Shown one piece after another: positions 34,216-46,462 of a stretch of 64,000 bases of DNA; the first letter of the stretch is position 1, and each line of letters opens with the position of its first letter. Under the pieces are notes generated by a model, which saw only the letters and a list, made by a program, of their open reading frames with translations, had not been told where the DNA came from and searched no databases. A program made the translations under genes and the position numbers. The DNA is from Pseudorhodobacter sp. MZDSW-24AT (GTDB taxonomy: Bacteria; Pseudomonadota; Alphaproteobacteria; Rhodobacterales; Rhodobacteraceae), in the NCBI RefSeq assembly GCF_002794355.1, contig NZ_PGOI01000001.1:1-64000 (forward strand), written 5' to 3'.

Positions 34216-35241
34216 ATGGAACAACTGCGACTTTGGGCTGTCGCACAGCGTAGTCCTGCCTTTCAAATTTGCTTTGCGTGTCTTGCGATTGTTGTCTCGA
34301 TTGCTTTACGCCATTACCTCGATCCGGTTTTGCCACCGGGCTTTCCCTATTTGACCTTTTTTCCTGCCGTGATCCTGACAGGATATTTTGCAGGAACGCG
34401 GGCCGGAATTGTGGTGGCTGTGGTCTGCGGGCTTGCGGCGTGGTATTGGTTCCTTGCGCCACACCAAAGCTTTTCGGTGACCTTCCCAAGCGTGGTTGCG
34501 CTTGTTTTCTATATGTTTATTGCGACAACCGAACTGGTTCTGCTGCATGCGATGCGCTACGCGCTTAGCAAGCTCGAGATCGAGAAAGACCGCTCTGACA
34601 CGCTCGCTCAGGCGAACAAGACGATGTTCCATGAATTGCAGCACCGTGTGTCGAACAACCTTCAGGTGGTGGCATCGCTGCTTAAGATGCAACGTCGAAA
34701 CGTGTCAGACGAAGCTGCGCGCGCGGCTTTGGATGTTGCGACCGCCCGCCTTCAAGTGGTAGCGAACATTCAGCGGCAATTGCACAATCCAAAGCGTCAA
34801 AGCACGGATATGGGCCAGCTGATGCGCGATGTTTTGCCTGAAGTGGTCAGCAACTCTGCCTTGTCCGACAGGATCGTCCTGGACTTCGATGTGGAACCCG
34901 TTGTCGTCACCGGCGATCAAGCAACGCCCTTGGCGCTGATCATTGTCGAACTCGTCTCGAATGCGGTCGAGCATGCGACGCATCAAGACAAGGATGCAGT
35001 GACGCATCTTCACCTCAAGATGTTCAGCCGCGGTTCAGAGGCAGTCATCATCGTGCAGGATGATGGAAAAGGCCTTCCCACCGATTTCGCACCAGAAAAG
35101 TCGCGCAGTCTCGGCCTGCGCGTGGCCTTGCAATTCACCGAACAACTCGGTGGCAAACTGGTCTTCGAGAAAATCGATGGCACGCGCGTGACATTGACCA
35201 TCCCGCTTCACGCTGTGGACGGGAAAGAGGGAAGAGGCTAG
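34216..35241 (+). CDS. Membrane HisKA_2-type sensor histidine kinase (DUF4118-like)
   Basis: A 341-aa kinase. Residues 15-115 hold about four membrane segments with the DUF4118-like pattern PPGFPYLTFFPAVILTGYFAGTRAG; a short coiled coil follows. The HisKA_2 domain has phospho-His in FHELQHRVSNNLQVV, the HATPase has VELVSNAVEHAT, DDGKGLP and SLGLRVALQF. This is the kinase type that drives PhyR in alphaproteobacteria. It is unpaired with a regulator and lies within the stress island. Codon use is less GC-biased in the first part than in the neighbours. Confidence 0.92.
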   Translation: MEQLRLWAVAQRSPAFQICFACLAIVVSIALRHYLDPVLPPGFPYLTFFPAVILTGYFAGTRAGIVVAVVCGLAAWYWFLAPHQSFSVTFPSVVALVFYMFIATTELVLLHAMRYALSKLEIEKDRSDTLAQANKTMFHELQHRVSNNLQVVASLLKMQRRNVSDEAARAALDVATARLQVVANIQRQLHNPKRQSTDMGQLMRDVLPEVVSNSALSDRIVLDFDVEPVVVTGDQATPLALIIVELVSNAVEHATHQDKDAVTHLHLKMFSRGSEAVIIVQDDGKGLPTDFAPEKSRSLGLRVALQFTEQLGGKLVFEKIDGTRVTLTIPLHAVDGKEGRG

Positions 35242-35999: not shown

Positions 36000-36025
36000 A
36001 ACGCCGCCTTGCATAAATGGGTTCC
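36000..36025 (-). promoter_or_regulatory. EcfG-type promoter of the exoD-family gene
   Basis: Minus-strand GGAAC (36025-36021), 17-nt spacer, CGTT (36003-36000). The -10 element is about 82 nt upstream of the ATG at 35918. Confidence 0.75.
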
Positions 36026-36159
36026 TCGCGGCGTTCTCACAGTCAGAAGCAGTCAGATAGGCGATCTTTTGCCGGCCTATCCGGAAGATCGGAACTTTTG
36101 CCCCCCCTGTGCGCGTTACTGGGATGCCGCCCTTCGGGGTGCCCTGCCTCATGGAGCGC

Positions 36160-36663
36160 ATGATGACCGTTACGGACCCTCAGCCGCACAAGCTCTCTCC
36201 TGCCTCACCCAGCCTCAAGCTGCTTTGGATGCAGGCCCTGATCGGGGCTGGTGCCCAACTCGCCCGGCCCGAGGTGGCGATGACCGACACCCCGGCGACT
36301 TCCAAGGATGCCGTGCATTACATCCTTTGTGGAGCAGGGCCCGGAACAACCGAGGCCGGGACCGATTTCCTCACCGCCGTCGCCAAAGCGCGGAAGCTTG
36401 TGGCTGGCGGCGCAAGACGTGTTGTATTCCTCACCTATGGCGACACGAAAGACGGACGCCTGCACCTGTCGCTGATCAGCTTTGCCCATCATGCAGGTCG
36501 CGCCTTGACCGCTCGGCCCGCGGAATTTGCGGTGGTTCCCATCCGGCAGCCGCTGACACTGTCTCCTGCGTCGGATGCCACGGAGCAGGCCCTTGCGCAA
36601 CTGCGCAAGCCCGGCGCGCTGGAGCCCGTCTGGGACAGCGCCACCCAGAACGCGCCCCGCTGA
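36160..36663 (+). CDS. Hypothetical protein in the stress island
   Basis: A 167-aa protein with no family I can name. The centre (VHYILCGAGPGTTEAGTDFLTAV, ARRVVFLTYGDTKDGRLHLSLISFAHHA) looks like a small soluble fold; codon third positions are GC-rich as in real genes here. The start is ATG at 36160 or the next codon at 36163, with GGAG just upstream. A near-EcfG promoter with an 18-nt spacer lies at 36091-36117. A 10-bp inverted repeat (36711-36740) follows the stop. Confidence 0.6.
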   Translation: MMTVTDPQPHKLSPASPSLKLLWMQALIGAGAQLARPEVAMTDTPATSKDAVHYILCGAGPGTTEAGTDFLTAVAKARKLVAGGARRVVFLTYGDTKDGRLHLSLISFAHHAGRALTARPAEFAVVPIRQPLTLSPASDATEQALAQLRKPGALEPVWDSATQNAPR

Positions 36664-36710
36664 AGAACCGGCAAGCGCCCCCGGTCATCGCATACCTGCA
36701 AGAGCCTACA

Positions 36711-36740
36711 ACCCAACACCTTGACGCTTTGGTGTTGGGT
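36711..36740 (+). terminator. Stem-loop after the hypothetical gene
   Basis: A perfect 10-bp stem, ACCCAACACC / GGTGTTGGGT, with a 10-nt loop, 48 bp after the stop at 36663. No T-run follows, so it may be a Rho-assisted or mRNA-stabilising structure. Confidence 0.5.
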
Positions 36741-36781
36741 CAGCGCGAGATTGATCAGCGATAGACAGACCCCGCGCGACA

Positions 36782-36812
36782 AAAAAGGCCGCCCGGAGGA
36801 CGACCTTTTCTA
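36782..36812 (-). terminator. Rho-independent terminator of the DUF1328 gene
   Basis: On the minus strand a stem of AAGGTCGTCC and GGGCGGCCTT (with one wobble pair) is followed by TTTTTTG. It begins about 28 bp after the DUF1328 stop. Confidence 0.7.
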
Positions 36813-36839
36813 GCATATCAACATGGTGTCACGGCCCGA

Positions 36840-37013
36840 TCACACCGGAGGACGCCCCCGCACGGCACGTGCGATCATCGCAACCACAAACAGCACAATG
36901 AACACGAAGAAGAGGATCTGTGCGATAGAGGCCGAGGCACCTGCGATGCCGCCAAAGCCAAGAGCCGCTGCAATCAATGCCACGACCAGAAACGTCAATG
37001 CCCAACCAAGCAT
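36840..37013 (-). CDS. DUF1328 small membrane protein (YtjA family)
   Basis: A 57-aa protein with two membrane helices ([20 protein letters not shown] and [20 protein letters not shown]) and a basic tail ending RGRPPV, matching DUF1328/YtjA in sequence and length. GGAG lies 8 nt before the ATG. It has its own terminator and an EcfG promoter about 57 nt upstream. The family is often stress-induced; its biochemical role is unknown. It is below common length cut-offs and easily missed. Confidence 0.9.
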
Positions 37014-37069
37014 GGTAATCTCCTATAAATCTGGTTCAGGTCTATGCGCCTAAGCGCTCATGAATGGTC

Positions 37070-37094
37070 AACGTGCGCTGCTGCCCAGGGTTCC
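37070..37094 (-). promoter_or_regulatory. EcfG-type promoter of the DUF1328 gene
   Basis: Minus-strand GGAAC (37094-37090), 16-nt spacer, CGTT (37073-37070), with the DUF1328 ATG 57 nt downstream. It is divergent from the promoter at 37185-37209. Confidence 0.78.
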
Positions 37095-37184
37095 CCCGGC
37101 ACCGCATTTTCCGATAACGCGGTGCGATGGCGGCTTCTTTAGCCTGCACATCAGCCGAGCTGTTTCTGCGTTCAAGATTTTCAG

Positions 37185-37209
37185 GGAACCCGGAACGCCA
37201 AGGCGCGTT
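37185..37209 (+). promoter_or_regulatory. EcfG-type promoter of the PLDc_N/holin-like/YqjD-like operon
   Basis: GGAAC (37185-37189), 16-nt spacer, CGTT (37206-37209). The ATG of the PLDc_N gene is 65 nt downstream of the -10 element. Confidence 0.78.
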
Positions 37210-37273
37210 GTCAAGCCAGAATGCCGTGACCGCGCGCCATGGCAGAACCGCTGACCCACAAAGGTGATCCGAG

Positions 37274-37480
37274 ATGAACCAGCTTAGCATGTTTGAACTG
37301 TCCGGTTTCGGGGGGCTTCTGATCCTCGCCCTTGATCTTTGGGCGATCATCTCGGTCTTTGGGTCTTCCGCCAGCACCGGCAAGAAAGTTCTGTGGACCC
37401 TTCTCATCATCTTCCTGCCGATCATCGGCTTCATCGCGTGGTTCTTCCTGGGCCCGCGCGCTGCGCAGCGCAGAATATGA
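37274..37480 (+). CDS. PLDc_N-domain small membrane protein
   Basis: A 68-aa protein with two hydrophobic helices (GGLLILALDLWAIISVFG and LLIIFLPIIGFIAWFFLGP), matching the phospholipase D N-terminal membrane domain found alone or in cardiolipin synthases. It is the first of three co-directional genes (21 bp to the next). Under EcfG control it may act on the envelope, but no catalytic motif is present. Confidence 0.88.
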   Translation: MNQLSMFELSGFGGLLILALDLWAIISVFGSSASTGKKVLWTLLIIFLPIIGFIAWFFLGPRAAQRRI

Positions 37481-37501
37481 CCGGTTTGGCAGGATAACCT
37501 G

Positions 37502-37882
37502 ATGTCGCGCTCTGGTGTCGAAAGCTGGCTCGTCCCGTTGCTTGATCTTGTCATGCTGGCGCGGCGCACCGTCCAGCTTCGGCTGGCTCTTCTCAAGGCA
37601 GAGCTTCGGGTTCGCGCGTCTTCTCTTGTAACGGCAGGCGTGCTGGGCGCTATGGCCATGGTCCTTGTTGTCATCATGCTGGGACTTTTGGTTCAGGCAG
37701 GCCTATTATGGCTTGCCCTGCTGGGCCTGACGCCGCTGCAATCTTTGCTGACGGGTGCGGGCGTTTGCGCTCTTGCCGCCGTGGTGCTCGTGCTGGTCGC
37801 AGGCCGCCTCGTCAAACGCGCGACCCTTCCCCTTTCACCCCTCGCGGGCTCTGGCGAGACGCGTCCCGCCACCCGCCCCTGA
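37502..37882 (+). CDS. Holin-like/YqjE-type membrane protein
   Basis: A 126-aa protein: an amphipathic N-terminus (ARRTVQLRLALLKAELRVRASSLVTAG) and two long hydrophobic helices (40-65, 70-95), like the phage holin family/YqjE superfamily. It is followed after 24 bp by a YqjD-like gene. YqjD, YqjE and similar proteins are stress-induced membrane proteins in enterobacteria; lytic activity is not implied. Confidence 0.78.
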   Translation: MSRSGVESWLVPLLDLVMLARRTVQLRLALLKAELRVRASSLVTAGVLGAMAMVLVVIMLGLLVQAGLLWLALLGLTPLQSLLTGAGVCALAAVVLVLVAGRLVKRATLPLSPLAGSGETRPATRP

Positions 37883-37906
37883 TACATTTTAAGTTTGGAG
37901 ATTCAC

Positions 37907-38968
37907 ATGGCACGCTCCCGTCGATCTGAAGCGCTTTTCAATGAGGCCCGCGCAACTGAAGATGCCCTTCGCGCAGCGATTGGGCGACTGACCGGTCGCT
38001 TGGTCGGGGGTGGAAACGCATCGGATGATTTGCTTGGCCTCGCCACCGGGCCTCTGGGTCAAACCGTCCTCGCAACCGCCGCGACGCGCGCCTTGCGCAC
38101 ACATCCTTTGGCGACGGTGCTGGTAGGGGCCGGTCTCGCTTGGCTCGCGTTCGGTCAAAAAGACGACCAGAGCCTGACCGAGCGCGTCTCTGACACGTTG
38201 GAAGACTGGCAGGCGAAGGCTGATGACGCACGCGACGCGGCCCGCGAGCGGCTCGCCGCCCTCTATGACGACATGTCAGAAAGGGGCCACGATGCCGCTG
38301 CATTTGCCCGTGAAAAAGCCGCTGTCACCGCAGATCTCGCCTCCGACCTTGCATCTGCGTTTGCACATGGCCTGTCAGACATGAGCGCTGATGCCGCAGA
38401 CCGCATCATCGCCGCCCGTGAGCGCGCCTATGCGGCCTTTGCCTCGGGCGCGGAGGCTGTCGAAGACAAGTTTGACGAGCTTACCGAAGAAGAAGACGAT
38501 CGCAACATCCTGCGGCGTCATCCCGTCGCTTCCGCTGCGGTCGCCGTTGCCCTTGGCGCGGCACTGGCAACCGCCTTGCAGGCCAACCGCCGCGAGGGAG
38601 AATCGCTGAGCCAGTCTGCCGAGCATCTGATGAAGAAAGCCCGGGACGTGTTTGACACCGAGCGCAGTGCGGCCAGCCGCGCATTTGGCGAGGCCGCCAG
38701 TGCCTTGCGCGCACGCGGCACCGAGGCCGCCTTGGCCATGGTCTCCGATCTGTCGGAAATCCTTGAAAATGCACGCGACAAGGGGCGAAGCGTTGTCGAG
38801 ACGGTAGAAGATGCCGCGGAGGACATTGAAGACTCCGCGCGCAGGACCACGCGCCGTGCGAGCGCCAAGGTCAACGACGCGGCAAAGCGCGTAAGCGCGC
38901 AGACCCGCAGCCGCCGGAAGGCGACCCAAAAGCTTGCCGACAAACTCACGGGCGGTCGCGCGCGTTAA
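37907..38968 (+). CDS. YqjD/DUF3618-like helical membrane-anchored protein
   Basis: A 353-aa, Ala/Asp/Arg-rich helical protein with two copies of a similar layout: a transmembrane stretch (TRALRTHPLATVLVGAGLAWLAFG, about 66-85) and a second (HPVASAAVAVALGAALATAL, about 205-225), each followed by long charged helices. The C-terminal 50 residues are Arg/Lys-rich and histone-like (RRTTRRASAKVNDAAKRVSAQTRSRRK). YqjD binds ribosomes at the membrane in E. coli; here the basic tail might bind nucleic acid. The start at 37907 is ATG; a TTG 4 codons upstream is possible. Confidence 0.8.
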   Translation: MARSRRSEALFNEARATEDALRAAIGRLTGRLVGGGNASDDLLGLATGPLGQTVLATAATRALRTHPLATVLVGAGLAWLAFGQKDDQSLTERVSDTLEDWQAKADDARDAARERLAALYDDMSERGHDAAAFAREKAAVTADLASDLASAFAHGLSDMSADAADRIIAARERAYAAFASGAEAVEDKFDELTEEEDDRNILRRHPVASAAVAVALGAALATALQANRREGESLSQSAEHLMKKARDVFDTERSAASRAFGEAASALRARGTEAALAMVSDLSEILENARDKGRSVVETVEDAAEDIEDSARRTTRRASAKVNDAAKRVSAQTRSRRKATQKLADKLTGGRAR

Positions 38969-39018
38969 ACGCGGTCCCTACCCTGTCTTTCCCCTGCCTC
39001 CTCAAGGCAACCCCACCT

Positions 39019-39050
39019 CCCCATGGCTTCGCGCCATGGGGCTTTTTTTA
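39019..39050 (+). terminator. Rho-independent terminator after the YqjD-like gene
   Basis: A perfect 8-bp stem, CCCCATGG / CCATGGGG, with a 7-nt loop, followed by CTTTTTTT. It lies 50 bp after the stop and overlaps the stop codon of the convergent phospholipase D gene. Confidence 0.85.
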
Positions 39051-40607
39051 CACCATTTCAGGGGGAAGGAAGGGCAGCGGTGTTCCGAATTTTTCGGCGA
39101 TCCGCACATCATAGGGCAAAACAAACCCCTGCCGAGATTCAGGAGGCCGCGCCGCATTCGACAGCGCGAGCCCGCGCCACGCAGCCACCGCAGTTTCTGG
39201 CGCAAAGTAACGTTGGTCGGCCTTTTCCGGGAGCCAATGCGCCATACAGCGGTGCCGGATGTCATCGACAACGTTCAGGTCTGTCAAGGATACGCCCGCC
39301 TCGGTGTCCCATCGCATGGAACGACCATTCAGGTTTGCGGATGAAATGATCGCCACATGGTCGAAGACCGAAACCTTGGCGTGAATATAGATCAGCGGCG
39401 CGTTCTTGAGATGATCGCGTCCGACCGTCTTGTCCGGCCTGCCTCGCCTTTGCTGGGCGGCGCTGCCAATAAAGAGACGCGCCCCGAAACTGCGCTGCAG
39501 ACGGCGCAGACAGCGCGCCTGATGCCATTCCCCGACTTGGGAATCGAGCCCCGTCCGCCCTTCGAAGGCCAGTTCTTCGGGCGCCCCCGGCAGCATGAGC
39601 AGAAGGTGCAGATCGGGCCGCGCGGCTGCGGCCGCGCAAAGCGCGCGGGTCAAAGCTCCATCGCGAAAATACTGGGTTTCCAGATAGATCAGGCCCTTCG
39701 CCTTGGAAATCGCAGCACAATGCGCGTCAAATATGCTTTGAACTACGGGCTTGGGACCAAAGCGCACCAAAGGCCTGCGCCGCTGTGTCGAGAGTGTAAC
39801 CAGCAAGTCGCCGCGTTCGACCGGGGGCATATCGCCTGCGGTCACGGCTTCGAAGCTCTCAAGGTGGCGCACCGCGTCTTCTGCCACCTTCCCCTCGACG
39901 ATGATCTGCACATCATGCCAAGTCTGATCCGCCGGGCGTTCATGATCCTGATCGTCGTAGCGGCGCTCGTTGAGGTCCAGACCACCAACATACAGGAGGC
40001 GGCGATCAAACACGGCAATCTTTTGATGGTGCGTCCCGGGGAACAGGCGCGGCACCGGCCAGAGTCTTGGGCGCACGGTCCCATTTGGCCGAACGACGAT
40101 AAGTTCGGCAGCACCGGGCATCTCACGCAAGGCAGCCGCGCGCAGGTCGGCCGGCTGTTTGTTCAGCCATTGGCACAGACGCCACACGCGCTTCATGATC
40201 ACCGGCGACAACAAGAACCGGGGAAGAGAACCTGTCTCGGCCGGATGACGCGCGACCGTCGCTTTGAGCTTCCCTGCACCCGGCCCCGCAACTTCGGCTG
40301 CGGCCTGCAACAAGCGTATGCTGCGCCACGTCCCTCGATGCATCGCGGCACGCGCGATCGGGTCGAAATCCGAGAGTTTTAGCGTGATGTTCACACCGCG
40401 GCGCAGACAGTCGACGATCAGGTCGAACCAGCGCGGTCCGACGTTCTGCGCCTGCGCAGAGCGCAGGCGGGTTTCCGGGTCAAACACCAGAAAACTGGCG
40501 ATGATTTCTGTCTCGGCGGTCAAAAACGCGTTTTCCAAGGCCGGATAGGCCTCGGCCGCCGTGATGAACACCTTCGGCATTGCGTCGGGCAGGGTGTCGG
40601 CGTTCAT
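39048..40607 (-). CDS. Phospholipase D/cardiolipin synthase-like protein
   Basis: A 519-aa PLD-superfamily enzyme with two HKD motifs: THHQKIAVFDRRLLYVGGLDL and IHAKVSVFDHVAIISSANLNG. No N-terminal membrane domain is present. Interestingly a separate PLDc_N protein is coded at 37274-37480. Likely activity: phospholipid hydrolysis or transphosphatidylation at the membrane. The upstream region (40651-40628, minus) contains only a weak EcfG-like match, GGGAC-N17-CGTC. Confidence 0.9.
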   Translation of the reverse strand: MNADTLPDAMPKVFITAAEAYPALENAFLTAETEIIASFLVFDPETRLRSAQAQNVGPRWFDLIVDCLRRGVNITLKLSDFDPIARAAMHRGTWRSIRLLQAAAEVAGPGAGKLKATVARHPAETGSLPRFLLSPVIMKRVWRLCQWLNKQPADLRAAALREMPGAAELIVVRPNGTVRPRLWPVPRLFPGTHHQKIAVFDRRLLYVGGLDLNERRYDDQDHERPADQTWHDVQIIVEGKVAEDAVRHLESFEAVTAGDMPPVERGDLLVTLSTQRRRPLVRFGPKPVVQSIFDAHCAAISKAKGLIYLETQYFRDGALTRALCAAAAARPDLHLLLMLPGAPEELAFEGRTGLDSQVGEWHQARCLRRLQRSFGARLFIGSAAQQRRGRPDKTVGRDHLKNAPLIYIHAKVSVFDHVAIISSANLNGRSMRWDTEAGVSLTDLNVVDDIRHRCMAHWLPEKADQRYFAPETAVAAWRGLALSNAARPPESRQGFVLPYDVRIAEKFGTPLPFLPPEMV

Positions 40608-40682
40608 TTTTCAGCCTGTCACTGTGATGGACGCAGCCCGTCCTTGGCTTGTCCCAAGGCGGGACACCTCTTCTGCTTCCCC

Positions 40683-42482
40683 CTACCCGCGCGGCGCCTC
40701 TCTGGACGCAGCAGACCGTTCTTCGGCTTCTGAAAGCGGGCGCAGCGGAAAATCCATTGTAAGCAGATACTCATCGCCTTCGCGACCGCGAGTCACCTTC
40801 CCGTTCAACTGCTGAGAGAATGCCGTCAGCAATTGAGAGCCAAAACCGTCGCTGCCCGGCACCAAGGGATCGTCGCCCTGAGCCACCACGGGGCGCAGGC
40901 TGTTGCGCAGCGTAAATCTTGCGATCCCACCGCCCGTGCGCTCCAACCGCAGTCCTACGGTGGACCCGGCAGTACCTGCATTCCAAGAATGCTTGATCAC
41001 ATTCGCCATGCCTTCGGTCAGAAACAGCGCCAATGGCACAGCTTGGTCGGGCGTCAGACGAATATCATCCACACTGGCGACCAACTCAAAGCGGCGGCCG
41101 GGGGCAGAGCCGATCCGCAGCAGATCACCCGCGACGCGCGGCAAAAGCTCATCTGCGCGCACGTCTGTCAATCCGCTGGTCTGATACAGTTCGCGGTGCA
41201 CCGTGGCGAGGCTGATCACGCGCTCCTGCACCGTGCGCATCGCTTCCTTCGCTTCCGCAGTCCGCGCCCCCCGCAACTGCATATTCAAAATCGAAGCAAT
41301 GAGTTGCAGGTTGTTCTTCACGCGGTGATGCACCTCTCGGAGCAGCACTTCCTTTTGATGGATCGTGTTTTCCAGATCCGCTTCATTGCGCACGACGGCA
41401 TCGGTCATGCGCTCATAGGCGCGGCCCACCGAACGCAGCTCGATGGCGGCACCGTCCATGTTGAGTTCCGGCAACTGTCGCTCCCCAGCCGCAAAAGCGG
41501 TGATACGGTCGCGGAGCAGACGTACATGGCGCAAGACTTGGCTTTCTGCTGCAAGCCACGCCACCAAAAGGCTGGCCGCCCACATCAGCATCGGAAACAT
41601 GAAGGCAGGCAATGCGCCTTCGAGAATGGTATTGTCGAGCCGGTCGGCAGGCCAAGACCCAATCAGATACAGTGACCCGATCTGTAGGGGGACAACGGCA
41701 AAGGCCCGCCGCTCGCCGCTTGGCGTGCTTGCGATAAAGCTGCGGCCGTTGTTGTTGCGCGTGAAGCTCGCAAGATCCCGGCCCGCTGGAAGGCTTTGCT
41801 CGGCTGCGTCCATCCCGATCGAGGACGTCAGCAAAGCCCCGTTCGCATCGAAAGTAATAAGCGCAAGCGGCTGGTCGTCTGTTGTTGACGCCGTTTTTGT
41901 CTGCTGATCCAAGGCCTCATGTGGCAAGGAAACAAAGGCGAATCCCATCAAGCTTCCGGCGGCATCCACCACAGGGTGCGACACGATCAAAACCGATGCT
42001 TGGGTGACTGGTCCATAGGGATTGACCGCGATTTTAGGGCCCGGGTCATCCAGAAGGATGGCCATAGCCTCTGTTCCGGCAAGATCGCGCTGTTCGTTGC
42101 GCGCGCCGCACGCCATCTGGCCGTTCACATCCACATAGCCAGCAAATGTAACCACCCCGATGTTGGCATCGACGAGATTGTCCATAAGCCTGCGGCAGGC
42201 ATCCAGGTTCGCAAGAACATCCCCTTGCACGACGGCAGGCAAAGCCGTTGCCAAGGTGGCAGCCTTCGCCTGCGCCTTCATCAGTTCTGCAATAAGCGGA
42301 TTGGCTGCAATCAAGGTCTCACCCTTGATTACATTTGTGACCCTTGCTTCGGCCAGCTGCGCGGTTTTCAGTCCTTGAACATAGCTAAGGATGGCAAGCG
42401 GCAATAGGGCAACCCCCATCACGGCCATGAGGCGAAATCCAAGTCCTGAAAACCGCCGCGGTATCGCGGCCAACTTCGTCAT
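40683..42482 (-). CDS. Membrane HisKA_2 sensor kinase of the GSR locus (PhyK-like)
   Basis: A 599-aa kinase: TM1 (about 17-37), a periplasmic sensor of about 240 residues (Cache-like, DACRRLMDNLVDANIGVVTFAGYVDVNG), TM2 (about 285-308), HAMP-like linker, and HisKA_2 with phospho-His in LREVHHRVKNNLQLIASILNMQ. The HATPase has LFLTEGMANVIKHS and GFGSQLLTAFSQQL. Its ATG overlaps the ecfG stop by 4 nt, so nepR, ecfG and this kinase form one operon opposite phyR. This is the expected position for the kinase that phosphorylates PhyR. Confidence 0.92.
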   Translation of the reverse strand: MTKLAAIPRRFSGLGFRLMAVMGVALLPLAILSYVQGLKTAQLAEARVTNVIKGETLIAANPLIAELMKAQAKAATLATALPAVVQGDVLANLDACRRLMDNLVDANIGVVTFAGYVDVNGQMACGARNEQRDLAGTEAMAILLDDPGPKIAVNPYGPVTQASVLIVSHPVVDAAGSLMGFAFVSLPHEALDQQTKTASTTDDQPLALITFDANGALLTSSIGMDAAEQSLPAGRDLASFTRNNNGRSFIASTPSGERRAFAVVPLQIGSLYLIGSWPADRLDNTILEGALPAFMFPMLMWAASLLVAWLAAESQVLRHVRLLRDRITAFAAGERQLPELNMDGAAIELRSVGRAYERMTDAVVRNEADLENTIHQKEVLLREVHHRVKNNLQLIASILNMQLRGARTAEAKEAMRTVQERVISLATVHRELYQTSGLTDVRADELLPRVAGDLLRIGSAPGRRFELVASVDDIRLTPDQAVPLALFLTEGMANVIKHSWNAGTAGSTVGLRLERTGGGIARFTLRNSLRPVVAQGDDPLVPGSDGFGSQLLTAFSQQLNGKVTRGREGDEYLLTMDFPLRPLSEAEERSAASREAPRG

Positions 42483-43054
42483 GCTGCCTGAATACCCGAT
42501 CGTCCCATCACCGCCAGAGTTGCCCCCGACTGTTCCGCCAGAATATCCTCACCCTCAGCAAGACCGAGCATCTCGCACAATTTGGCACGCGCGCGATTGG
42601 CTCGGCTTTTGGCAGTGCCGACAGCCACGCCCATCATATGCGCCGCTTCCTCATAGGAATACCCGTTCGCGCCCACAAGGATCAGAACTTCACGATGCTC
42701 GGGCGACAGCTTGTCGAATGCATGGCTGAAATCGGTGAAAGCGAGACGCCCGTCATGATGCGGCTTCTCAAACATTGAAGCTGCGTGAACACCATCGGTA
42801 TCGGACACTTCGCGCCGCGTCTTGCGCTTGGACGAAAAGAACGTGTTGCGCAGGATCGTGAAAAGCCACGCGCGCATGTCAGTGCCAACGGTGAACTTCT
42901 CGATGTTCGACCAAGCTTTCAAAATGGTTTCCTGCACAAGATCGTCGGCTTCGCTCACATTGCGGGTCAGTGAGATGGCGAAGGCACGCAGGGAAGGAAT
43001 GTGGGTTGCCATCTCGTCACGCGGGTCTGCATGGGTGACGGGGGCGCTGCTCAT
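42479..43054 (-). CDS. ecfG: General stress ECF sigma factor EcfG
   Basis: A 191-aa ECF15/EcfG-type sigma factor: region 2 (LRAFAISLTRNVSEADDLVQETILKAWSNIEKF, MRAWLFTILRNTFFSSKRK) and region 4 (LSPEHREVLILVGANGYSYEEAAHMMGVAVGTAKSRANRARAKL). It has no C-terminal SnoaL extension. The ATG overlaps the nepR stop (ATGA). Family: held by the anti-sigma NepR and released when phosphorylated PhyR binds NepR; recognises GGAAC-N16/17-CGTT. Confidence 0.97.
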   Translation of the reverse strand: MSSAPVTHADPRDEMATHIPSLRAFAISLTRNVSEADDLVQETILKAWSNIEKFTVGTDMRAWLFTILRNTFFSSKRKTRREVSDTDGVHAASMFEKPHHDGRLAFTDFSHAFDKLSPEHREVLILVGANGYSYEEAAHMMGVAVGTAKSRANRARAKLCEMLGLAEGEDILAEQSGATLAVMGRSGIQAA

Positions 43055-43212
43055 TTGCCAGCCTCCTTTGCTTTCAGCTGCTCGAGCAAAAGCTTAAACC
43101 TGTCAGGCACTTCTTCCTTCAGCGCCGCCTCGTAGACACGCTTCAGGTTTTCATCAATGTCTTTGCGCAAACTGGATTTCTGGTTGTCACCCGACATATG
43201 TTCCATCATCAT
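43051..43212 (-). CDS. nepR: Anti-sigma factor NepR
   Basis: A small protein of 48-53 aa. The core DENLKRVYEAALKEEVPDRF followed by LLLEQLKAKE is the NepR signature that binds both EcfG and the PhyR sigma-like domain. In-frame ATGs exist at 43212, 43209, 43206 and 43197; the last (MSGDNQKSS) is preceded by GATGGA and may be used. The stop overlaps the ecfG start. It is below the length cut-off of usual ORF tracks and was found by reading the sequence. Confidence 0.95.
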   Translation of the reverse strand: MMMEHMSGDNQKSSLRKDIDENLKRVYEAALKEEVPDRFKLLLEQLKAKEAGK

Positions 43213-43241
43213 GCTACTCTACCGATCCCGCATTTATTCAT

Positions 43242-43267
43242 GGAACCAAACGCGACGCCAGTGCGTT
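43242..43267 (+). promoter_or_regulatory. EcfG-type promoter of phyR
   Basis: GGAAC (43242-43246), 17-nt spacer, CGTT (43264-43267), 35 nt before the phyR ATG. Its DNA is also the mirror image of the nepR promoter. Confidence 0.85.
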
Positions 43268-43274
43268 TGGTTCC
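43249..43274 (-). promoter_or_regulatory. EcfG-type promoter of nepR-ecfG-kinase
   Basis: Minus-strand GGAAC (43274-43270), 17-nt spacer, CGTT (43252-43249), about 37 nt before the most upstream nepR ATG. It overlaps the phyR promoter almost completely. Confidence 0.85.
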
Positions 43275-43301
43275 GTAGAAAACGAAACTGGGGAGAAAAT
43301 A

Positions 43302-44111
43302 ATGACTGCCTCCGCGACCTTCGATCTGACATCGGCCATCGCGGCCGATCTGCCGTTTTTGCGTCGCTATGCGCGTGCGCTCACCGGCAGCCAAGATACC
43401 GGCGACCGTTACGCTGCCGCGACCTTGGAAAGCATTCTGATCGAAGATACGCCGGTCCGCGAAGCCTCTACACCACGGATCGGATTGTTCCACTGCTTCC
43501 ACCGCGTCTGGGCCAGTGCTGGCGCGCCGTTGGAAACCGAAGATGACATCTTGGCCAAACGGGCGCAGGTCCACATGGCAGGGCTGACGCCCAACTCGCG
43601 CGAGGCGTTGCTGCTCCATGCGATTGAAGGCTTTGACCGCCCCGCCATCGCCGAAATCATGGCGCATGATGAGACCGAAGTGCAGGCGCTTCTGGACGCC
43701 GCCATTCGCGAGATGGAGGCATCCGTGACCGGGAAGGTCATGGTGATCGAGGATGAGGCCATCATCGCGATGGACATCGTCGATATCGTGGGCCAGATCG
43801 GACACAAGGTTACAGGCGTTGCCAGAACACGCCGTGAAGCGGTCGAGCTTGCCGCGCGCGACCGCCCCGACTTGATCCTTTCGGACATCCAGCTGGCCGA
43901 CGACTCGTCGGGGATCGACGCGGTCAATGATATCCTGGCCCAATTCGACGATATCCCGGTCATCTTCATCACCGCTTTCCCCGAGCGGCTGCTGACGGGC
44001 GACAAACCGGAACCGGCTTTCCTGATCACCAAACCCTTCTCGGAAGAGCAAGTGCGCTCGGCCGTCAGCCAAGCCATGTTCTTCTCTTCGACCGAGACCC
44101 TGCACGCCTGA
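43302..44111 (+). CDS. phyR: General stress response regulator PhyR
   Basis: A 269-aa PhyR: an N-terminal sigma-like domain (FDLTSAIAADLPFLRRYARALTGSQ, LTPNSREALLLHAIEGF) that mimics EcfG, and a C-terminal receiver (VIEDEAIIAMDI, phosphoacceptor Asp195 in LILSDIQLAD, FITAFPERL, TKPF). GGGGAG precedes the ATG by 7 nt. On phosphorylation it sequesters NepR and frees EcfG. Divergent from nepR-ecfG-kinase and with its own terminator. Confidence 0.97.
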   Translation: MTASATFDLTSAIAADLPFLRRYARALTGSQDTGDRYAAATLESILIEDTPVREASTPRIGLFHCFHRVWASAGAPLETEDDILAKRAQVHMAGLTPNSREALLLHAIEGFDRPAIAEIMAHDETEVQALLDAAIREMEASVTGKVMVIEDEAIIAMDIVDIVGQIGHKVTGVARTRREAVELAARDRPDLILSDIQLADDSSGIDAVNDILAQFDDIPVIFITAFPERLLTGDKPEPAFLITKPFSEEQVRSAVSQAMFFSSTETLHA

Positions 44112-44137
44112 GTTTTGTCCCTTCACACACCACCTTG

Positions 44138-44165
44138 CGCCTGCCCTCGTGGCAGGCGTTTTTTA
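44138..44165 (+). terminator. Rho-independent terminator of phyR
   Basis: A perfect 8-bp stem, CGCCTGCC / GGCAGGCG, 5-nt loop, followed by TTTTTTATT, 26 bp after the phyR stop. Confidence 0.9.
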
Positions 44166-44185
44166 TTGAACTTCAGGAGCTTCGT

Positions 44186-44210
44186 GGAACTCCTCAGGCC
44201 GGATTGCGTT
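44186..44210 (+). promoter_or_regulatory. EcfG-type promoter of the small exported protein gene
   Basis: GGAAC (44186-44190), 16-nt spacer, CGTT (44207-44210), 54 nt before the ATG at 44264 and directly after the phyR terminator. Confidence 0.8.
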
Positions 44211-44263
44211 CTCTGTGCAAGCGAGGGCTGCCCTTCGCATCACATATCTGGAAGGATCTTTTC

Positions 44264-44746
44264 ATGTTCCGCAAAGTTCTTATGGCAACCACCGCCCTCT
44301 TCATCGCGCAGGCCGCATTCGCGCAGGACACGATGGTGAAAGAAATCGACGTGACCGCCGATATCACCGCCATCTCGAATGCCGAGGCTGCGAGCTACTG
44401 GGCAAACACGGCGGCTGATCTGCAGAATGCCATCCTCGCGCGCCTTGTCGACCGGGTTGGCGAAGATGGCGTGAAGATCAGCGTCGATATCGACGAACTG
44501 TCCTTGGCAAACTCGTTCCAGAACCAGTTGAACCTCGAAGATGCTGTTCTGGTCGGCTCGGTGAATGTGACCAGCGACACCGACAATACCAAATTCGACA
44601 GCTATGAGCTGACCGTGACGGCCCTGACAGCGCAAGCCTTTGCGCCGGACGGTGCGGTGTTGGATGGCGCGTTCACCGACACGCCCGAGTATTACGCCGC
44701 ACTTATCGCCGCATTCGCCGATGGTGTTGTGACCCGTATCAAGTGA
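44264..44746 (+). CDS. Small exported protein of unknown function, EcfG-controlled
   Basis: A 160-aa protein with a Sec signal peptide (MFRKVLMATTALFIAQAAFA, cleavage before QDTM). The acidic mature part of about 140 residues has no cysteine and no motif I recognise: ADITAISNAEAASYWANTAADL, then LVDRVGEDGVKISVDIDELSLAN, suggesting a compact alpha/beta fold. GGAAGGA precedes the ATG. It is expected to be a periplasmic stress protein. Monocistronic, bounded by terminators. Confidence 0.85.
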   Translation: MFRKVLMATTALFIAQAAFAQDTMVKEIDVTADITAISNAEAASYWANTAADLQNAILARLVDRVGEDGVKISVDIDELSLANSFQNQLNLEDAVLVGSVNVTSDTDNTKFDSYELTVTALTAQAFAPDGAVLDGAFTDTPEYYAALIAAFADGVVTRIK

Positions 44747-44763
44747 TCGAAACCCCAATGATG

Positions 44764-44792
44764 AAAGGCCCCGGAGTGATCCGGGGCCTTTT
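44764..44792 (+). terminator. Rho-independent terminator after the exported protein gene
   Basis: An 11-bp stem, AAAGGCCCCGG / CCGGGGCCTTT, 6-nt loop, ending in TTTTC, 17 bp after the stop. Confidence 0.88.
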
Positions 44793-44810
44793 CATTTGCG
44801 CCAAGTGAAA

Positions 44811-44845
44811 GAAAAGGCCCGGAGAGCACTGCACCCCGGGCCCTT
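44811..44845 (-). terminator. Rho-independent terminator of dps
   Basis: On the minus strand a GC stem (AAGGGCCCGG with CCGGGCCTT, one bulged base) is followed by TTTTCTTTC, just after the dps stop. It faces the terminator of the convergent exported protein gene. Confidence 0.75.
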
Positions 44846-44851
44846 GCGTTT

Positions 44852-45346
44852 TTACTTGGAGGTGGCGCGCAGCATCCAAGCGGCTTTTTCGTGGAAGGCC
44901 ACGCGTGCAGTGAGCAAATCGGCAGTTGCCACATCTTCACCGTCCTCGGCGCGGCCGATCACATCCCGCATACGGCGGACAACGGCTTCATGTTCTCCGG
45001 CGAGGTCTTCCACCATCTCTTGCGCCGAACCCAGTTTGGCAGGATCCTTGACGCAAGACATCTTGGTGACTTCAGACAATTGATAGGGTGCGATCCGGCC
45101 CAAGGCACGAATACGCTCTGCCAGATCGTCGGCCGCCTTGAACAGATTGTTGTACTGCGCTTCGGTCAGGATATGGATCGAGTGGAACAGCGGACCTTCA
45201 ACGTTCCAGTGGACGGCATGTGTCTTGAACAGCAGGCGATAGGTGTCCGCGAGTGCCTCGCTCAGGCCTTTAGAAATGGCGGTGACGCCTGTGATGCCGG
45301 TGTCGATCTTGTCTGCCGCTGGCACGGCCTTCAGTGCTTCTGACAT
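44852..45346 (-). CDS. dps: Dps ferritin-like DNA-protection protein
   Basis: A 164-aa Dps: ferroxidase-site residues in LFKTHAVHWNVEGPLFHSIH and AQYNNLFKAADDLAERIRALG, a four-helix bundle, and a short N-terminal tail (MSEALKAVPAADK). The start at 45346 has AAAGGA upstream; the frame extends 11 codons more. It stores iron with H2O2 as oxidant and shields DNA; a typical GSR target. Promoter at 45399-45424. Confidence 0.95.
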   Translation of the reverse strand: MSEALKAVPAADKIDTGITGVTAISKGLSEALADTYRLLFKTHAVHWNVEGPLFHSIHILTEAQYNNLFKAADDLAERIRALGRIAPYQLSEVTKMSCVKDPAKLGSAQEMVEDLAGEHEAVVRRMRDVIGRAEDGEDVATADLLTARVAFHEKAAWMLRATSK

Positions 45347-45394
45347 GAGAAATCCTTTCGGTGACGCACCGCCGGACATGGCAGCGCTCTGCCA

Positions 45395-46462
45395 TCAAAA
45401 CGCAGGTCCGTCCGCCGAGGTTCCTTCGCCCATTGCCAGATCCTTCGAAAAGACGACCACCTGCCCCCGTCCAGCGTGCTTGGCCGCATAGAGGGCGAGA
45501 TCCGCATCGCGCAGCATCACCTCGGGGGCGGGAGTTTCATAGTGGGTCGAGACAGTCAGCCCAATGCTGCCGCCGATCTGGCACATCGTTGCTTCAACTG
45601 AAATCGGCCTTGCCAAGGCCGCGATGATCCGCGTCGCGACGGCGCGCAACCGCGATGGATCGGCCATTCCGGGCATCAGGATCACGAATTCGTCACCCCC
45701 CACCCGCGCCACCAGATCGCCCGACCTTGTTTCACCCGACAAGAGCCGAGCCACCACTTGCAAGACCTTGTCACCAGCGGCATGTCCCCAGCTGTCATTC
45801 ACCTGTTTGAAACGGTCAAGGTCCAGATGCATGAGCGCAAAGGGCTGCGCAGAGAGCACCGCCTGCGCCAAGCCCAAATCAAGGGCACGGCGGTTGCGCA
45901 ATCCTGTCAGGGTATCTGTCAGGGCCTGCTCTTCCGCTTTCGATTTTGCGCCTTGCAAGCGTAGGTTCAAGCGTTGCAGTTCGTCCATCACGGCCCGCTT
46001 CACCTCAACCAGATAGAGCAGTTCTACCGTCAGATCCGTGGCTGCAAAATCGGCATCTGTGAGTGCGTGCGCCTGAACCGCATCCGCGACGCCAATTCCG
46101 AAGGAAAGATTCATCACCATACCGCCGAAGGCATCAGCCACCGCCAGCCCGCGAAACTCTGCCCCCCCGCCGCGCAGGGCCACATGCAGGCGCTTTCCTT
46201 CATGACACCGCACATGGACCATTTCCGTCACACCGGAAGGTCGGCGCACCTCAAACAGATCGAAGAAATGCTGTCCGCTCTCCGAAGACGCTGTCGGCAT
46301 CCTTGCGCCGCCGACGATCTTGGCAAGGGTCGCACCGATGCCCAAAATCTGGCCTGACGCTGACACATGCAAATGCATGGGTATCAGACGATCCAGCCCA
46401 GCGACAGGCAGCGCAACACCCGCAAACCCCTCGGTTGGTTTTGACGGCCAGAGCTCATCCAT
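45395..46462 (-). CDS. HNOBA-GGDEF diguanylate cyclase
   Basis: A 355-aa protein. The N-terminal 130 residues resemble the H-NOX-associated (HNOBA) domain (PMHLHVSASGQILGIGATLAKIVG, FEVRRP); a coiled-coil linker follows (about 150-180); the GGDEF domain has LDRFKQVNDSWGHAAGD and an intact ARVGGDEF. An RxxD inhibitory site (RSGD) lies five residues before GGDEF. It should make cyclic di-GMP in the cytoplasm. It is 15 bp downstream of the H-NOX-like gene, its likely regulatory partner. Confidence 0.9.
   Translation of the reverse strand: MDELWPSKPTEGFAGVALPVAGLDRLIPMHLHVSASGQILGIGATLAKIVGGARMPTASSESGQHFFDLFEVRRPSGVTEMVHVRCHEGKRLHVALRGGGAEFRGLAVADAFGGMVMNLSFGIGVADAVQAHALTDADFAATDLTVELLYLVEVKRAVMDELQRLNLRLQGAKSKAEEQALTDTLTGLRNRRALDLGLAQAVLSAQPFALMHLDLDRFKQVNDSWGHAAGDKVLQVVARLLSGETRSGDLVARVGGDEFVILMPGMADPSRLRAVATRIIAALARPISVEATMCQIGGSIGLTVSTHYETPAPEVMLRDADLALYAAKHAGRGQVVVFSKDLAMGEGTSADGPAF
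45399..45424 (-). promoter_or_regulatory. EcfG-type promoter of dps
   Basis: Minus-strand GGAAC (45424-45420), 17-nt spacer, CGTT (45402-45399), 53 nt before the dps ATG. It lies inside the last codons of the upstream diguanylate cyclase gene. Confidence 0.8.

Follow-up and report, generated by a model that had tools for sequence, protein, structure and literature searches.

A shared 33-bp site with two nested, opposed predicted EcfG promoters between nepR and phyR in Rhodobacteraceae

Introduction

Can a single DNA site start transcription of both divergent units of a stress-response locus, and does such sharing have a regulatory effect? The question is raised by a locus of Pseudorhodobacter sp. 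MZDSW-24AT situated in the window analyzed here, i.e. the whole stretch of 64,000 nucleotides at positions 1 to 64,000 of contig NZ_PGOI01000001.1. The gene phyR (43302..44111, plus strand) codes for a 269 aa anti-anti-sigma response regulator that combines sigma-like domains with a receiver (PF22029, PF22233, PF00072; NF006623 at 351.7 bits with a cut-off of 240). Divergently, on the minus strand, we found nepR (43051..43212), the gene of a 53 aa anti-sigma factor (PF18557, E 4.7e-15), whose product had no match in the NCBIfam profile search. It is followed by ecfG (42479..43054, minus strand), coding for a 191 aa ECF sigma factor (NF009198 at 305.1 bits, cut-off 270) and overlapping the nepR stop, and by the gene of a HisKA_2/HWE-type sensor kinase (40683..42482, minus strand), which overlaps the ecfG stop. 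The kinase is PhyK-like (PF07568), with a weak similarity to PhyK (NF051872 at 196 bits, under the cut-off of 750). Given the overlapping ends, the three genes are arranged like an operon.

The locus has the content of the alphaproteobacterial general stress response locus, namely PhyR, NepR, an ECF sigma factor and divergent units. The genome is near to Pseudotabrizicola: among the best 80 of 120 loci, six from Pseudotabrizicola, including two that are metagenome-assembled, had a PhyR with 96-97% identity. Another HisKA_2/HWE-type kinase, carrying a DUF4118 domain, is encoded at 34216-35241 of the window (plus strand), roughly 5 kb away from the PhyK-like one.

Predicted promoter elements in the palindrome

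The gap between nepR and phyR is 89 bp long and contains a 33-bp palindrome, GGAACCAAACGC-GACGCCAGT-GCGTTTGGTTCC (43242-43274), with perfect 12-bp inverted-repeat arms and a 9-bp centre. The initial annotation had described this palindrome as two opposed EcfG-type promoters, and the letters agree with it: GGAAC-N17-CGTT matches at 43242-43267 on the plus strand and at 43249-43274 on the minus strand. The published EcfG consensus is GAAC-N16,17-C/GGTT (as given in the accessible text of PMC4814048), and a match to it is present before both the phyR and the nepR-ecfG units.

The predicted phyR promoter has its -35 element, GGAAC, at 43242..43246 and its -10 element, CGTT, at 43264..43267, both on the plus strand. 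The predicted nepR-ecfG promoter has GGAAC at 43270..43274 and CGTT at 43249..43252 on the minus strand. Thus the -35, the -10 and the spacing are identical for the two promoters, and each -10 sits 2 bp inward from the opposite promoter's -35, the elements being adjacent and not shared. The DNA at 43242-43274 is pseudo-symmetric, and a single polymerase footprint would take in promoter elements of both orientations. Nine of the 12 bases of an arm are dictated by fitting both promoters in register; therefore, perfect palindromy contributes just three further matched positions (43247, 43248 and 43253, with their partners).

The phyR start would presumably be at about 43273-43275, if the usual ECF spacing applies, and the nepR-ecfG start would be expected at about 43241-43243. 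Judging by the sequence match and by the register kept in the family (see below), we are highly confident that the palindrome carries two EcfG promoters, and both starts would then depend on EcfG. Two weak sigma70-like matches lie near the palindrome, and other promoters may contribute beside the predicted EcfG pair. From the predicted transcription start of nepR, a 10-codon ATG frame (43209-43241 of the window, minus strand) runs as far as the nepR start codon, which its end overlaps; the frame may be there by chance.

Conservation in the family

The family sample comprised 150 PhyR loci (30 + 120), of which 136 had a divergent nepR before phyR; among the other 14 loci, 13 had no nepR match and one (L155) had nepR placed otherwise. 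Sites were called nested if the gaps between neighboring elements were 0-5 bp, the spacers 15-18 bp and the mismatches at most 3 of 18, with dinucleotide shuffles as a control. Nested opposed EcfG sites were found in 122 of the 136 divergent loci compared to 1 of 680 shuffles, though the loci are related, so that the counts are not independent and are inflated by kinship. Sixty-four loci had zero mismatches, and 14 of the 136 were not nested. Sharing of one 33-bp site by the nepR-ecfG-kinase and phyR promoters, as proposed initially, is thus upheld both by the opposed sites themselves and by the overlap kept across the family.

What is held constant in the 122 nested loci is the promoter geometry. 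Both spacers were 16 or 17 bp in 118 loci and the outer length was 31-33 bp in 120. A GGAAC consensus match was present on the phyR side in 121 loci and on the nepR side in all 122. The -10 was CGTT in 89 loci on the phyR side and in 80 on the nepR side, and 107 loci retained the GTT core in both promoters. Where the gaps measured 2 bp (81 nested loci), the information content of the -35 elements was 1.8-2.0 bits per base, and identity in the centre averaged 32-35%. We also ran a register-free test with a stricter rule. It found sites on both strands in 107 of the 136 loci, always overlapping, at offsets of 7 bp (81 loci), 6 bp (20), 8 bp (4) or 2 bp alone (2). None of the 136 loci had solely a non-overlapping pair, and 29 lacked one or both sites under this rule.

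The perfect symmetry at 43242-43274 could instead suggest the operator of a dimeric transcription factor, with the likeness to promoters being secondary. Gaps were indeed symmetric in 91 of the 122 loci. Moreover, arm position 7 was symmetric in 45 of 81 loci, more often than expected (permutation p 0.0006; GC-stratified p 0.009; kinship ignored in both). Still, positions 6 (p 0.10) and 12 (p 0.69) showed no co-variation in the permutation test on these 81 loci; position 7 is a hint, and we do not accept arm co-variation as proof that the palindrome is being corrected. An operator would be expected to keep its half-site symmetry together with its spacing in relatives, and the 122 nested loci do not do so: gaps were asymmetric in 31, while the -35/-10 spacing of 16 or 17 bp, which a promoter needs and an operator does not, was held in 118. 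In addition, the opposed pattern occurs once per genome that has it, and the single-strand motif stands also before a dps-like gene and other genes nearby. We therefore reject the dimeric operator, to which we give very little probability.

The conserved feature is a pair of overlapping predicted promoters, each with the right spacing; the symmetry need not be perfect. Conservation across Rhodobacteraceae loci had been named beforehand as a test of the initial annotation. The arrangement kept across the family answers it, the overlap being conserved and the perfect symmetry not.

The register itself has changed many times. For 121 nested loci placed on a tree of EcfG, the fewest changes were 49, an approximate figure since the tree was made from one short protein by a quick method, compared to a mean of 64.8 and a minimum of 59 for shuffled labels.

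Controls for chance occurrence

Genomes were searched for the exact opposed pattern, GGAACNNAACGN{9,13}CGTTNNGTTCC, and, as a control, for the same pattern read backwards. The pattern occurred once in the 3.86-Mb genome of this strain, and the backward control did not occur. In the family, 51 of 295 genomes (294 genera) had it, one occurrence each, with zero occurrences of the backward control; PhyR was detected in 140 of the 295. All 51 matches were located directly upstream of phyR: 49 before an identified divergent nepR, one with ecfG and no nepR match, and the last, L155, between nepR and a phyR that matches in two pieces. Though 9-13 central bases were permitted, the matches were 32 bp (31 matches) or 33 bp (20 matches) long. 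These lengths imply spacers of 16 or 17 bp, both lengths of the published consensus. The dinucleotide shuffles and the whole-genome backward controls together rule out a chance origin of the opposed pair.

The same genome has a second overlapping opposed EcfG-like pair, GGAACG...CGTTCC, on contig C15 (L327 1205-1232). This pair is in another register and lies inside overlapping ORFs, one of them recombinase-like by eye, on a 6.5-kb contig. We did not accept it as a genuine second site; it is probably due to chance.

The single-strand motif GGAAC-N16/17-CGTT was not enriched in the genome, with 73 matches compared to 211 for the backward control. Therefore, the weight of the argument rests on the opposed arrangement and its conservation, not on the motif alone, and many isolated matches are probably chance. 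The window holds 8 of the 73 matches, 7 of them within 36000-45424. The expected number in the window was 1.2 (P ~4e-5, calculated after the cluster had been noticed). By motif match, candidate EcfG-type sites precede an ExoD gene (36000-36025, minus strand), a DUF1328 gene (37070-37094, minus strand), a small ORF at 37274 (37185-37209, plus strand), a secreted-looking ORF if its start is at 44264 (44186-44210, plus strand) and the dps-like gene (45399-45424, minus strand). The region 36000-45424 is perhaps a stress regulon island.

One-sided loci in Paracoccus

The loci carrying names were the best 80 of 120, and 78 of them had sufficient upstream DNA. Nested sites with at most one mismatch were found in 45 of the 78. 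The palindrome of Rhodobacter capsulatus DSM 1710 (L221) has the 31-bp form; in R. capsulatus, disruptants of phyR and of ecfG are described (passages of PMC3999984). The 33 exceptions were 32 Paracoccus loci and one locus of the same type (L249). Together with one nested Paracoccus locus they make 34 loci, of which 33 kept the nepR-side site, mostly as GGAAC-N16/17-GGTT. On the phyR side, a scan made without a shuffle control gave a weak match in 9 of the 34 loci and none at that level in the other 25. In these loci, with the nepR side kept and the phyR side weak or gone, the autoregulated sigma unit outlives the phyR side. The -10 of the nepR promoter in the Paracoccus loci (L228-L268, in part) was mostly GGTT and not CGTT.

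Loci of this type raise the question of whether, at nested sites too, just one direction is an active EcfG promoter, with something else accounting for the persistence of the second arm. Against this stand the elements of the nested loci themselves, where both -35s are near-invariant and the -10s are kept to a similar degree on the two sides. We consider a single active direction improbable.

Loci outside the family

The outside-family sample had 85 PhyR loci (82 distinct), made of a class sample and three orders. Divergent ecfG was upstream of phyR in 59 of the 85. A different layout was common here: in 33 of the 82 distinct loci, from seven family codes, the EcfG sites were back to back, with the -35s a few bases apart and an offset of -30 to -35. 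Most of the 33 (25 loci) came from the order of G298, i.e. 22 of its 29 added loci and 3 sampled before. The back-to-back loci are found among L163, L166, L171, L173, L174, L179, L182, L183, L288-L290 and L292-L320 (in part). We observed in these 33 loci that T-runs often follow GGAAC and that the distance between the -35s is near-constant.

In the order of G335, five of the 6 loci had nested sites at offset 6, and so had L177 under a looser rule, irrespective of order. For 2 of the 47 loci in the class sample, the best pair was one with an offset of 2. The remaining loci had other spacings, a single side or no pair.

Proposed mechanism

In the mechanism that we propose, polymerase with EcfG would recognize these 33 bp in two orientations, of which one would lead to the phyR start at about 43274 and the other to the nepR-ecfG-kinase start at about 43242. 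Since both complexes would occupy this DNA, each initiation would serve a single direction at a time. Such mutually exclusive occupancy, deduced from the overlap, is very probable. With initiation at one site and in one direction, a rise in free EcfG would raise both units together, and the split between the units would be set by the two sets of elements. Since the -35, the -10 and the spacing are identical at 43242-43274, competition should favour neither side as far as these elements go, and the split would be about 1:1. Judging by the sequence, one site probably serves both gene sets, and the polymerase bound there would transcribe either of them.

The initial annotation went further and proposed that the activator (PhyR) and the inhibitor with the sigma factor (NepR/EcfG) compete for the site as a ratio control. 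This is not supported. The elements are identical, both sides have the same sigma consensus, and neither side is consistently weaker. The -10 deviated from CGTT on one or both sides in 58 of the 122 nested loci; it was imperfect on the nepR side only in 25, on the phyR side only in 16, on both in 17 and on neither in 64, a split that shows no conserved bias. In a toy equilibrium-binding calculation, exclusive sites held the output ratio constant at all sigma levels, compared to independent sites of unequal strength, which drifted toward equal output. Under this simple model, exclusion would freeze the ratio rather than tune it. Compared to ratio control, a fixed split or plain compaction is the better fit.

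How much would a fixed split matter? That it is of consequence for the stress switch is possible but doubtful. Somewhat less probable still is that selection keeps the nested-site exclusion in Rhodobacteraceae because it fixes the PhyR output relative to that of NepR-EcfG at every sigma level and damps cell-to-cell variation. The phyR and ecfG mRNAs of Rhodobacter sphaeroides differ in the stresses to which they respond (accessible text of PMC5830050), which argues at the mRNA level against a strict coupling of phyR and ecfG.

The overlap could instead be a compact layout with no regulatory effect, where neither promoter can move unharmed and firing is too rare for competition; we hold the chances of this to be evenly balanced. 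Drift of the register, with the number of changes given above, and the absence of a consistently weaker side across the family are in line with it. So is an E. coli study, in the accessible text of which the basal firing of five bidirectional promoters was too low for polymerase competition, with competition appearing only once activity was raised (PMC12825309). On the other hand, the overlap has survived many register changes in the family, and Paracoccus loses it by weakening or disappearance of the phyR side, not by separation of the promoters. We read the site as at most a fixed splitter, and an effect-free compact layout is at least as likely a reason for it. Taken as a whole, a shared nested site with exclusive initiation and a fixed split is the explanation that we consider likely to be the best.

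Comparison with known systems

The closest known system is the EcfG-autoregulated phyR / nepR-ecfG locus of Alphaproteobacteria. It is alike in gene content, in the divergent layout and in having an EcfG consensus promoter for each unit, and in other Alphaproteobacteria EcfG is described as driving both units (passages of PMC8103513 and PMC4814048). For S. meliloti, rsiA1 and rsiB1 are described as EcfG-driven units (passages of PMC3616915). The EcfG control of both units and their divergence were already known, and the nesting would be the new part; the promoters are nested here, unlike those of the 33 outside-family loci in which they stand back to back.

Within the titles, abstract openings and text passages found, there was no description of nested EcfG promoters at nepR/phyR. 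A figure marks predicted promoters at Rubellimicrobium thermophilum loci (PMC12148442, by its legend), where the overlap may be seen without being remarked on. The nested form occupies the control switch of the general stress response in nine tenths of the divergent family loci (122/136). Nature has produced three layouts, i.e. nested, back to back and one-sided as in Paracoccus, which makes a regulatory role of promoter overlap directly testable.

The other comparison is with the sigma70 bidirectional promoters of E. coli studied by Warman, Grainger and colleagues. These are alike in having near-symmetric DNA, two polymerase orientations and exclusion of one polymerase by the other, which the accessible text of PMC12825309 states as established and which we infer for the present site. 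In one E. coli example studied, the interference reduced expression noise (same source). The own feature of the E. coli class is a shared -10, and the five promoters studied have starts 10-23 bp apart (PMC12825309, same text). The present site has no shared -10: the elements at 43249-43252 and 43264-43267 are separate, each just inside the opposite -35, the distance between the expected starts would be about 32 bp, and the promoters are of the kind read by an ECF sigma factor. The work on bacterial bidirectional promoters that we found concerns the housekeeping sigma factor; the site described here would extend it, in nested form, to an alternative sigma factor.
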